Positions 21,016-24,001 of a DNA stretch of 58,891 bases are shown here, piece by piece (positions within the stretch are counted from its first letter, which is position 1; every line of letters begins with the position of its first letter). The DNA is from Gemmatimonadota bacterium (GTDB taxonomy: Bacteria; Gemmatimonadota; Gemmatimonadetes; Gemmatimonadales; GWC2-71-9). A program made the position numbers and the translations under genes. The DNA lies in contig SHZU01000013.1 of NCBI GenBank assembly GCA_009692115.1, positions 1-58,891 of the forward strand, written 5' to 3'. The notes beneath the pieces were generated by a model. It saw only the letters and a program-made list of their open reading frames with translations. It made no database searches and had not been told where the DNA came from.

Positions 21016-22106
21016 CCCCGGGCGTGCCACTCCTTTAGGAGTTCGATTTCCCGGGCCGCGGTCAGGCCCGGGCGGGGCACGGCTTCCCACGCGGTTCCCT
21101 CCGACTTGAACCACTTGAGGGTGTCCGCCGCGGTATCGGCCAAGGAACGGTAGGTCAGGCCGGCCGCGACGGCACGCTTGGGGCTGATCAGCCCGTTGCC
21201 CTTGTGATCACCAATCGGCGGGTACCAGATCGGGATGTCCCGCCACGGCCGAATCTTCCGGTCGAGGAGAAACTGAGTCTCAACCCAGATAAACCGGACG
21301 TCGGCGCTGGTGATGGCCCGGATCCCGTAGAGAAATTCGGCCATCGAGAGCGGAGTACCCGGTCCCATCGCGTTGAACACTCCGGTGGTCTTCTGCTCGA
21401 GCAGCCGAACGATCCATTCGGCCATGTCCCGGGCATCGATGATTTGCACCGGGTCGGTCGGCGCGCCGGCGGCCAGCACTTCGCCGCCCCGGTCGATCCG
21501 GACCGGCCAATAGGTGAAGAGGTTGGCGTTGTCACCCGGGCCGACGATCCAGCCTGGCCGGATGATGGTATTGCGCTCCGGAAACGCCTCGCGGACTTCC
21601 TGCTCGCAAATCACCTTGAGCGGTCCGTAGTACTTCCGGGTGTCCTCCGAGTTCGGCTCGGGTAGCACGGCCTTGGGGGCATCCTCGTCCATATGGTCGA
21701 CGGTGAAATCTTTATAGACGTCGCCGGTCGAGATGAAGAGGTAGTGGTCGGCCTGGGCCTTGAGCATTTGCGCCGAGGCGCGGACCACCCGCGGCACATA
21801 GCCCGAGGTGTCGATGACCGCGTCCCACTTCCGTCCCTTCAAGACGCCAAGGCCGCCGTCCCGGTCGCCGATCAGCTTCTCGAGGCCCGGAAAGAGGCCC
21901 GGATTGGTCTTGCCTCGATTGAAGAGCGTCGGCACGTGACCTCGGGCCTGAGCCGCCCGAACCATGTGGGGACCGATGAATCCGGTCCCGCCGATGAACA
22001 AGATCCGAAGCGGAGCCTTCCGCCGAAGCGTGAAGGCCGAGGGTCCGATCGAGAGCGCGGCGCCGGTGACGGCGGTGGTCTTGATGAAATCGCGTCGAGT
22101 AGTCAT
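21012..22106 (-). CDS. Tat-exported NAD-dependent epimerase/dehydratase
   Basis: A 364-residue extended short-chain dehydrogenase/epimerase. The N-terminus has a twin-arginine signal (TTRRDFIKTTAVTGAAL), and the Rossmann motif GGTGFIG follows at about residues 39-45. SGYVPR and STGDVYKD segments follow, and YYGPLK, with a YxxxK-like Tyr/Lys, is visible near residues 159-164. Tat export would suit a cofactor-bound periplasmic oxidoreductase. It overlaps the hisIE stop by ATGA and is the last gene transcribed from the his promoter. Any link to histidine synthesis is not evident. Confidence 0.8.
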   Translation of the reverse strand: MTTRRDFIKTTAVTGAALSIGPSAFTLRRKAPLRILFIGGTGFIGPHMVRAAQARGHVPTLFNRGKTNPGLFPGLEKLIGDRDGGLGVLKGRKWDAVIDTSGYVPRVVRASAQMLKAQADHYLFISTGDVYKDFTVDHMDEDAPKAVLPEPNSEDTRKYYGPLKVICEQEVREAFPERNTIIRPGWIVGPGDNANLFTYWPVRIDRGGEVLAAGAPTDPVQIIDARDMAEWIVRLLEQKTTGVFNAMGPGTPLSMAEFLYGIRAITSADVRFIWVETQFLLDRKIRPWRDIPIWYPPIGDHKGNGLISPKRAVAAGLTYRSLADTAADTLKWFKSEGTAWEAVPRPGLTAAREIELLKEWHARG

Positions 22107-22687
22107 TGAGGTAATGTAGCAGAGGTGGATTCCCGGCGGCCAAAGGCTTCCTGGACGTCGGCCAGCGACACCCCCAGCGCCCGGACGGCCACCAGCGTGT
22201 GGTAGAGAAGGTCGGCGGCCTCTTCGGTGGCACGGACCGGGTCGCCATCGACGCAGGCCACCGCTAATTCGGTCGCTTCCTCACCCAGTTTTTTCAGGCG
22301 GAGGTTTCGGTCGGCGAGGAGCTTGGCGGTGTAGCTGGCTCCGGCATCGGGCCCGGCGGCGCGGGCCGCGATGGTCCGGTCGAGGCGGCCGAGGACTCCG
22401 GCGCCCATGTCCCCAAAGCAGGTTGGGGCGCCGGTATGACACGCCGGTCCCGCCGGGATCACCTAGGCCAAGAGCGTATCGCCGTCGCAATCGGGCAGCA
22501 GGCTGACCACCCGCTGGACGTTGCCGCTGGTGGCGCCTTTATGCCAAAGGCCCCGGCTCCGGGAGCGATAGTGCATCTCGCCGGTCTCGAGCGTCTTGGC
22601 CACCATCAGCACCGCCCCGGTCGTGGCGTCTTGGGCAACCACCGCCACGACTCCACCCCGTTTCGTGAAGTCCAAGCGATCGATCAT
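22103..22687 (-). pseudogene. hisIE: Bifunctional HisIE interrupted by an amber codon
   Basis: The start (ATG 22687) is coupled to hisN by ATGA. The N-terminal part is phosphoribosyl-AMP cyclohydrolase ([13 protein letters not shown], then [10 protein letters not shown]). A TAG at 22463-22465 interrupts the frame, and in the same frame it continues VIPAGPACHTG, the zinc-binding C-terminus of HisI, followed by a full HisE pyrophosphohydrolase domain (KKLGEEATELAVAC, EEAADLLYHTLVA). HisI stopped at the TAG would lack an essential Cys. The codon after TAG is GTG, so HisE might be made by reinitiation. Natural suppression or a sequencing error are alternatives. Confidence 0.8.
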
Positions 22688-23454
22688 GGGGATACCAACA
22701 TCGACCGGACCGTCACCGCTAGTTCCCGGTTGGTGGCAATCGTATCGCCGCCAAAGGCGGTTCGCCGGCCTTGCCAATCAGTCAACACGCCACCCGCTTC
22801 CTCGATGATGGGCATCAAACAGGCTGAGTCCCAGGGGTTCATTCGGTCGTCAACCATGACATCGGCCCGGCCGGTGGCGACCAGGAGATAGCCGAAGCAA
22901 TCGCCCCAGGTTCGGACCACCCGGGCCTCAGCCGCCAGGGCCTGCCACGATTGCCTCCGCACCGGCTGATCGGGAAATCGCTCGTCGGTGGCGAGGACCA
23001 CGGCATCGGCCAACACCGACTGGGTCGACACCCGGCAGCGCGCTCCGTTGCACCAAGCACCTTCGCCCCGGGCGCCGGCGACCAACTCGCCGGCCGCGGC
23101 ACAGTTGATGGCCCCGGCCAGCACCTCTTCTCCCTCTACGACGGCGATCAGGGTTCCCCAGAGCGGGGTTCCGGCCACGAAGCTCTTGGTCCCGTCGATC
23201 GGGTCGATCAGCCAGCGCCGGCCGGTGCCGCTCCCGGTCAATCCGAACTCTTCGCCGAGAATGGTATCGTTGGGAAATCGAGCGCTGATCCACGCCCGTG
23301 CCGCCTGTTCAGCGGATTGGTCGGCGATGGTGACCGGACTCCCGTCACCTTTCCATTCGACCGCCACACCCTTGCCGAAATATCGGAGGGCCACCTCGCC
23401 GGCCACGCGGGACACATCGGTCACCGCCTGGAGGAGTTCGCTCGGATTGCTCAC
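22684..23454 (-). CDS. hisN: Histidinol-phosphatase, inositol monophosphatase type
   Basis: A 256-residue member of the IMPase superfamily. Metal-site motifs are GEEFG (about residues 67-71), [11 protein letters not shown] (about 85-95) and [17 protein letters not shown] (about 205-221). The position between the his fusion gene and hisIE, with GTGA and ATGA overlaps on both sides, supports histidinol-phosphate phosphatase activity over inositol phosphatase. The GTG at 23454 begins the homologous region; the longer open frame upstream overlaps the preceding gene out of phase. This is the only gene of the his remnant that looks intact. Confidence 0.82.
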
Positions 23455-23807
23455 CAGGTTCTCCGGGTTGGAATGCCGGCCGCGGCCATGGCCTGTTTGA
23501 ACTCGGTGACGGTCGTCTGGCCGTCGTGGAGGATCCGGCACCGGCCGAAGTTGAGGTCGAGCCGGTCGACCAGCGCCCGCTCCGACTCGGTGACCAGATC
23601 CCAGCCGGTGATCCCGACCAGGGCGGCGCCGTCGGCCACGAACTCGGGAATGTCCTGCGATCGGACGAAGATCGCTTCGTACTCGTCGCCGAGCTTGGCA
23701 ATCAGGGCCCGGTCGCTCTGGACCCGGACGGAGAGTCCGGCATCGTCGAGGAGGGCGCGAACATCGTCGGCCAACCGACCTTTGTTTGGCAACGCGATTT
23801 TGAGCAT
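23451..23807 (-). pseudogene. hisG: hisG'-'hisF deletion fusion
   Basis: A 118-residue frame. Residues 1 to about 87 are the N-terminal domain of ATP phosphoribosyltransferase (IALPNKGRLADDV, RSQDIPEFV, GITGWDLV, LDLNFGRCR). Short-form HisG is some 200 residues, and the phosphate-binding second half is missing. The last 30 or so residues (ILHDGQTTVTEFKQAMAAAGIP...) read as the C-terminus of HisF. The simplest explanation is one deletion removing the rest of hisG, most of hisF and any his genes that lay between. The fusion is in frame and ends with a GTGA overlap to hisN, as an intact hisF would. It should be inactive as HisG and as HisF. Confidence 0.75.
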
Positions 23808-23816
23808 CCGGCCTCG

Positions 23817-23849
23817 AAAAAGAAAGCGGCCCGTCTGGTGACGGGCCGC
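23817..23849 (-). terminator. Attenuator terminator of the his operon
   Basis: On the minus strand GCGGCCCGTC (23849-23840), loop ACCA, GACGGGCCGC (23835-23826) form a perfect 10-bp stem, followed by TTTCTTTTTC (23825-23816). It lies between the leader peptide stop (23882) and the start of the hisG fusion (23807). The 5' arm contains CGGCCCG (23848-23842), complementary to CGGGCCG (23917-23911) just after the His codons, giving an alternative antiterminator pairing. Confidence 0.88.
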
Positions 23850-23881
23850 GGAGTCATGTCGTTACGCCTGAAGGTTCCGAA

Positions 23882-23965
23882 CTAGCACCCCTGCGCAGCA
23901 AACCAGACCCCGGCCCGATGACCGTGGTGATGGTGGTGCGCGTGCCGAATCAGAGCGGTGTGCAT
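23882..23965 (-). CDS. hisL: His operon leader peptide
   Basis: A 27-codon frame (ATG 23965, TAG 23884-23882) with eight His codons: positions 2, 8, 10-14 and 16. Five are consecutive. It lies between argR and the hisG fusion and is followed by the perfect terminator at 23826-23849. Stalling of a ribosome at the His codons would free CGGGCCG (23917-23911) to pair with the 5' arm of the terminator, which is the classical attenuation logic. There is no Shine-Dalgarno site. The promoter spacing puts the transcript start at or next to the A of ATG, so translation is probably leaderless. Confidence 0.88.
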   Translation of the reverse strand: MHTALIRHAHHHHHGHRAGVWFAAQGC

Positions 23966-23971
23966 GGCCCG

Positions 23972-24001
23972 AAGGTATCCCAAGCCGGCCGGGGCTGTCA
24001 A
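23972..24001 (-). promoter_or_regulatory. Promoter of the his operon
   Basis: A perfect -35 TTGACA (24001-23996) overlaps the argR stop codon. A -10-like TACCTT (23977-23972) follows after 18 nt. The predicted transcript start, about 7 nt downstream, coincides with the ATG of the leader peptide at 23965. The his remnant can thus be transcribed independently of the arg operon. Confidence 0.6.

Follow-up and report, generated by a model that had tools for sequence, protein, structure and literature searches.

Ribosome-mediated attenuation of the his operon is textbook knowledge for enterobacteria, and leader-peptide regulation of his genes is on record for Proteobacteria and a few Firmicutes. 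The locus described here raises the question of whether the same device operates in a bacterium of another, poorly studied phylum and, if so, what it could still control. The window, i.e. the whole stretch of DNA that was analysed, is the entire contig 13 (58.9 kb) of a Gemmatimonadota MAG, a 3.12-Mb draft genome in 23 contigs that is rated 97% complete. In it, a short frame with a run of histidine codons, followed by a terminator, precedes hisG on the minus strand, the strand of all features given below. Working from the sequence alone, an initial annotation had read these elements as a his attenuator with the logic of the classical enterobacterial system, in an organism that did not look enterobacterial; the source of the DNA bears out the second point, and comparison across the phylum backs the first. 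The reading that we favour, with high confidence, is that of a leaderless, ribosome-mediated his attenuator which is conserved across the phylum and stands here above a gutted operon, either as a recent relic or in control of the genes that remain.

The annotation had also placed the attenuator ahead of the hisG of a working operon, and this part of it did not hold. The frame at 23451–23807 is a hisG remnant, in which hisG codons 1–92 run on, without a change of frame, into the ~26 terminal codons of hisF; the junction is at about 23531. The Pfam HisG match covers only positions 1–51 of the 158 in the profile and is the sole HisG match in the genome, and tblastn to same-genus operons assigns residues 1–92 to hisG and 92–118 to the end of hisF, which in the same-genus genomes lies about 5.4–5.5 kb further on. 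The fusion shows ~5 bases of microhomology, and an in-frame deletion of roughly 5–6 kb probably joined hisG to the hisF end. An open hisN-like gene of the inositol-monophosphatase family (22684–23454; PF00459), a homologue of which comes after hisF in four same-genus genomes, begins with a GTG that overlaps the stop codon of the fusion. The hisIE gene that follows (22103–22687; PF01503 on the HisE part, and alignment) is likewise a remnant, with an in-frame TAG at 22465–22463 and a deletion of eight codons in the HisI part that are present in all four same-genus relatives compared; these lesions are independent of the hisG–hisF deletion. HisD and HisB were not found in this 97%-complete genome, nor was a true hisA or hisF, the His_biosynth family giving only two weak matches elsewhere. 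With hisG truncated and hisD, hisB and hisA/F not found, the attenuator cannot regulate a complete pathway here, whilst relatives of the same genus carry the stretch from hisG to hisF. Given an operon gutted in this way by the hisG–hisF deletion and the hisIE lesions, histidine auxotrophy is probable.

Could the attenuator be real and the operon intact in the living organism, with the hisG–hisF junction an artefact of MAG assembly? We think this unlikely, even though the genome is a draft of many contigs and four same-genus genomes do have the segment in question, since the junction is in frame and its few shared bases were judged too short for a k-mer misjoin, since the missing his genes are absent from a nearly complete genome, and since hisIE, which lies outside the deletion, carries a nonsense codon and a deletion of its own. 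Loss of HisG is, moreover, common. HisG was searched for in 102 family genomes and 370 phylum genomes. Of the 102 family genomes, 42 had no HisG match, and of the 50 among them that combine ≥90% completeness with ≤5% contamination, 14 had none, so that loss of the histidine pathway is not rare and repeated loss of histidine synthesis in the family lineage is likely. The simplest reading, for a locus seen in a single MAG assembly, is that of a recent histidine auxotroph with its attenuator still intact; the element would be a recent relic, or would now control only what remains, the hisN-like gene. Having outlived its pathway, it offers a means of gauging the pace at which such RNA decays.

The leader frame itself (hisL, 23882–23965) runs from an ATG at 23965 to a TAG at 23884–23882 and encodes the peptide MHTALIRHAHHHHHGHRAGVWFAAQGC, with 27 codons of which eight specify histidine; five of these are consecutive (23924–23938) and form the predicted ribosome-stalling site. 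Upstream DNA was drawn from ~130 hisG loci, and 84 loci with a leader, the window included, were compared; the leaders upstream of hisG have 18–33 codons and 4–10 histidines (median 6). The window leader appears to begin on the first base of its mRNA (+1) or close to it. A −35 element, TTGACA (23996–24001), sits on the argR stop codon (24000–23998), and a −10 element, TACCTT (23972–23977), follows after a spacer of 18 nt, its last base 6 nt before the leader ATG. The initial annotation had listed the same −35 over the argR stop, a −10-like box 18 nt on and this 27-codon frame with its eight histidines and run of five, and all were recovered from the sequence, with the reservation that TACCTT is a weak −10, matching TATAAT at 3/6 positions, though it fits the TANNNT form found in relatives. 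Because of this weak −10, a simple consensus promoter scan of the window segment reported no promoter.

In the relatives, TTGAC lies 34–40 nt upstream of the leader start (mode 36) in 78 of the 84 loci, as against 1/84 in a control window ~115 nt further upstream, and this spacing is the one expected of a −35 element if the leader start codon is +1. The best-scoring −10 ends 5–10 nt upstream of the leader start in 79/84 loci, and a promoter score of at least 8 is reached in 75% of loci but in less than 1% of shuffled upstream sequences. A Shine-Dalgarno-like motif was found in none of the 84 loci within the 16 nt upstream of the leader start. At the sequence level, these leaders thus present what defines a leaderless gene, a promoter adjoining the start codon and no Shine-Dalgarno, which is strong evidence that leader mRNAs across the phylum are leaderless or nearly so; as the annotation had proposed, the mRNA from which the window leader peptide is read is very probably leaderless. 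The contrary view would have transcripts arriving from the upstream arg genes, or from an undetected promoter, and translation starting after a 5′ UTR. The weak −10 of the window leader speaks for it, as does the position of argR and other arg genes directly upstream and in the same direction, which makes read-through into the leader possible, but nearly all relatives have an equally close-spaced promoter before the leader and none of the 84 loci has a Shine-Dalgarno-like motif, and we consider this view improbable.

In the leader RNA, four regions and a T tract were delimited from the sequence, from pair counts and from RNAalifold, the comparisons being made over 27 sequences. Region 1 (CCACGG, 23922–23927) is the end of the His run and pairs with region 2 in a protector hairpin, the pairs CC-CGG/CCG-GG being present in the window leader. 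Region 2 (CGGGCCGGGG, 23908–23917) is the 5′ strand of the antiterminator and is complementary at 9/10 positions to region 3 (CCGCGGCCCGTC, 23840–23851), which is common to antiterminator and terminator. Region 4 (GACGGGCCGC, 23826–23835) is the 3′ arm of the terminator and is followed by the T tract TTTCTTTTTC (23816–23825). The perfect 10-bp terminator described in the annotation, with TTTCTTTTTC behind it, is indeed there on the minus strand, its arms (23849–23840 and 23835–23826) being 100% complementary around a 4-nt loop, and so is the exact complementarity of CGGGCCG (23917–23911) to CGGCCCG (23848–23842) in the terminator 5′ arm. CGGGCCG had been placed directly after the His run, which is right for the last His codon, whereas two codons (GGT CAT) separate it from the run of five. 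Taken alone, the window sequence is suggestive of an attenuator but falls short of proof: the free leader folds only moderately better than shuffles (z −2.1), and its antiterminator complementarity does not significantly exceed that of shuffles (p = 0.11) because the region is very GC-rich, so that the claim of an antiterminator rests on the relatives.

Amongst these, a terminator stem of at least 8 bp is found 20–43 nt past the leader stop in 71 of the 84 loci. The antiterminator duplex in the 71 usually begins 0–12 nt downstream of the last His codon, and in 34 of them it is more complementary than dinucleotide shuffles at p < 0.05, against an expected 3–4. When 27 leaders are aligned with MAFFT (A1), the antiterminator in one fixed register pairs in 79% of cells, and in 36–47% once that register is shifted by 1–3 columns, a control that somewhat favours the register, since it was read from the same sequences. 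Two-sided changes affect 17 antiterminator cells (shuffle mean 8.8; 1/500 shuffles as high), and the terminator, with 92% of cells paired, has 11 such changes (0/500 shuffles as high), in a shuffle test that is inflated by the relatedness of the sequences. The unguided RNAalifold consensus of the same alignment contains the terminator and the protector hairpin, the latter joining columns 54–63 with 67–75, i.e. the last His codon (CCACGG) with CCGnGG inside region 2. The locus thus has the consecutive-His frame, the intrinsic terminator and the protector hairpin of a his attenuator, and the mutually exclusive antiterminator is seen across the relatives. The conservation and covariation checks that the annotation had suggested accordingly came out in its favour, since relatives keep both the His run and the alternative pairing, and compensatory changes occur in antiterminator and terminator alike.

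Folding of the 71 leaders is consistent with a switch governed by the position of the ribosome. If a ribosome is made to occupy the His codons, the 5′ arm of the terminator finds an upstream partner in 70/71 leaders; if the full-length leader is left free of ribosomes, 70/71 form the terminator. As long as the 3′ arm of the terminator is still missing, however, region 3 pairs upstream in 43/71 of the ribosome-free leaders as well, so that the outcome must depend on timing. The mechanism that we propose is classical ribosome-mediated his attenuation, which is well supported by comparison of the leader sequences. Transcription would start on the leader ATG or no more than a few bases away from it. 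When charged tRNA-His is scarce, the ribosome would stall on the five His codons and cover region 1; region 2 could then pair with region 3, the terminator would be blocked and RNA polymerase would read on. When His-tRNA is plentiful, the ribosome would clear the His codons, region 1 could pair with region 2 in the protector hairpin, and regions 3 and 4 would form the terminator, stopping transcription before hisG. In the enterobacterial his leader, as usually described, a ribosome at the leader stop sits on region 2. The window leader has its stop ~24 nt past region 2, which a ribosome at that point would leave uncovered; the protector hairpin, together with the kinetics of folding, would then have to bring about termination. 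Six other leaders (L040, L046, L049, L089, L092 and L094) have their stop codon TAG inside the antiterminator segment (GGGGGATAGCCGG), which is nearer to the classical layout than is the window leader.

The His-rich leader precedes hisG in most of the phylum members sampled. It was located at 84 loci, and no same-genus genome with sufficient upstream sequence lacks it (the leader region of L008/G089 is cut by a contig end); it is missing at 44 other loci, a few of which are merely cut too short to tell. Among those without it are ~30 same-family genomes with another short-type hisG and the six sampled members of family f7. A covariance model (R1), built from 24 leaders (alignment A5) with the window leader among them, was run on the window's genome with E ≤ 0.01 and gives a single site, the window attenuator (73 bits). 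It matches in 43 of 101 sampled phylum genomes; the strong matches are mostly at hisG positions, and weak ones (about 27–37 bits), often away from hisG, are probably due to chance. Sequences that are not members of the model also match it, in Eisenbacteria at 59–70 bits and in Myxococcota at 38–51 bits. In a named set of loci with at least 250 nt of upstream sequence, chosen by HisG similarity to the window's genus and hence not a census of the spread of the leader, it precedes hisG at 51/52 loci of the Gemmatimonadota group, 4/4 of Eisenbacteria and 21/21 of the Myxococcota group. The same leader–terminator layout is found before hisG in L145, L170, L188 and L195 (Myxococcota) and in L160, L196, L205 and L207 (Eisenbacteria), where the leader starts with ATG or GTG and the terminator sequence is very similar to that of Gemmatimonadota. 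In a HisG tree, the sample for which was selected by similarity and includes a mis-extracted f6 row (L062), the Myxococcota HisG proteins fall in a poorly resolved fork with the Gemmatimonadaceae types. Two records in that tree are oddly placed: L177, titled Comamonas sp. KCTC 72670 and counted here in the Myxococcota group, nests in Myxococcaceae, and L173, titled Candidatus Kuenenia stuttgartiensis, nests in Gemmatimonadaceae, which suggests misnamed or misbinned records. In the window's genome, inspection of the DNA ahead of trpE and leuA turned up no comparable leader for Trp or Leu.

A role in trans for the attenuator RNA or its peptide would explain why every element is intact although the operon is broken, and there is a precedent in rnTrpL/peTrpL of Sinorhizobium meliloti, according to the available text of that report (PMC7298713). 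Recent loss explains the intact leader equally well, however, and outside the His run the peptide sequence varies, its conserved part coinciding with RNA region 2; we give such a role very little credence. The wider proposal, in which a trans function keeps the attenuator in place and a leaderless family shared by Gemmatimonadota, Myxococcota and Eisenbacteria has moved between phyla with the his operon, strikes us as similarly far-fetched. The idea that the His-rich frame is a chance run, or a metal-binding peptide unrelated to regulation (His runs are able to bind metal, but no result here supported this), can be dismissed, since only one other frame of at most 45 codons in the 58.9-kb window reaches 4 His in 10 codons and none has more, and since the position before hisG, the promoter spacing, the terminator and the antiterminator pairing are all conserved across the phylum.

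A leaderless his attenuator, present here above the remains of its operon, would make leader-peptide regulation of histidine synthesis a common device of an additional phylum, and one that recurs in Myxococcota and Eisenbacteria. This leaderless his form has no Rfam model. It is further evidence that transcription and translation can be tightly coupled even where initiation is leaderless, and offers about 80 natural variants for testing what determines the sensitivity of an attenuator, with Gemmatimonas and Myxococcus as cultured hosts for experiments.

Amongst known systems, the enterobacterial His_leader (RF00514) resembles the window element in its short frame with a His-codon run ahead of the his operon, its antiterminator and terminator alternatives and its protector hairpin, whilst the window type is apparently leaderless, belongs to an unrelated phylum and has a longer peptide tail, which puts region 2 inside the frame, well before the stop. 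An Rfam search gave no His_leader match in the window segment, even at E up to 10, and no family at gathering score in 15 relative loci. A His T-box was considered and rejected, there being no match to the T-box covariance model in the window segment or in the same 15 loci. Control of Corynebacterium glutamicum hisD has been ascribed to a T-box(His)/5′ UTR, a translation-coupled mechanism being excluded in review because there is no His-rich frame (PMC3896937); RNA control of his genes is what that system and the window have in common. His leaders are on record for Firmicutes his operons (Bacillus cereus group, Eubacteriales and Erysipelotrichales; PMC9413887) and for hisS/hisZ in bacilli (PMC2965389), and the available portions of both reports describe a His-rich peptide with terminator and antiterminator before his genes, as in the window, but with 3–5 consecutive His codons, in other phyla and with no mention of a leaderless start; a word search of both papers returned no mention of Gemmatimonadota. 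Leaderless leader peptides are likewise on record, for trpL of S. meliloti (PMC7298713) and for trpL, leuL, ilvL and others in Streptomyces lividans, with a TANNNT −10 (PMC8079986). As far as the accessible parts of these papers go, the attenuator RNA starts at or near the leader ATG, as we propose for the window, whilst the leaders serve other amino acids, there being no histidine leader among the eight of S. lividans. The literature covered, chiefly open-access papers, yielded nothing relevant on his leaders in Myxococcus or Gemmatimonadota, and the priority of the leaderless his form is uncertain. Set against these accounts, what was already known is the existence of non-enterobacterial His leaders (PMC9413887, PMC2965389) and of leaderless leaders for other amino acids (PMC7298713, PMC8079986), to judge from the parts of those papers that were available; new within the literature covered are the leaderless his form, its conservation across the phylum and its recurrence in Myxococcota and Eisenbacteria, and new in the window's genome is the survival of such an attenuator above a dead operon.
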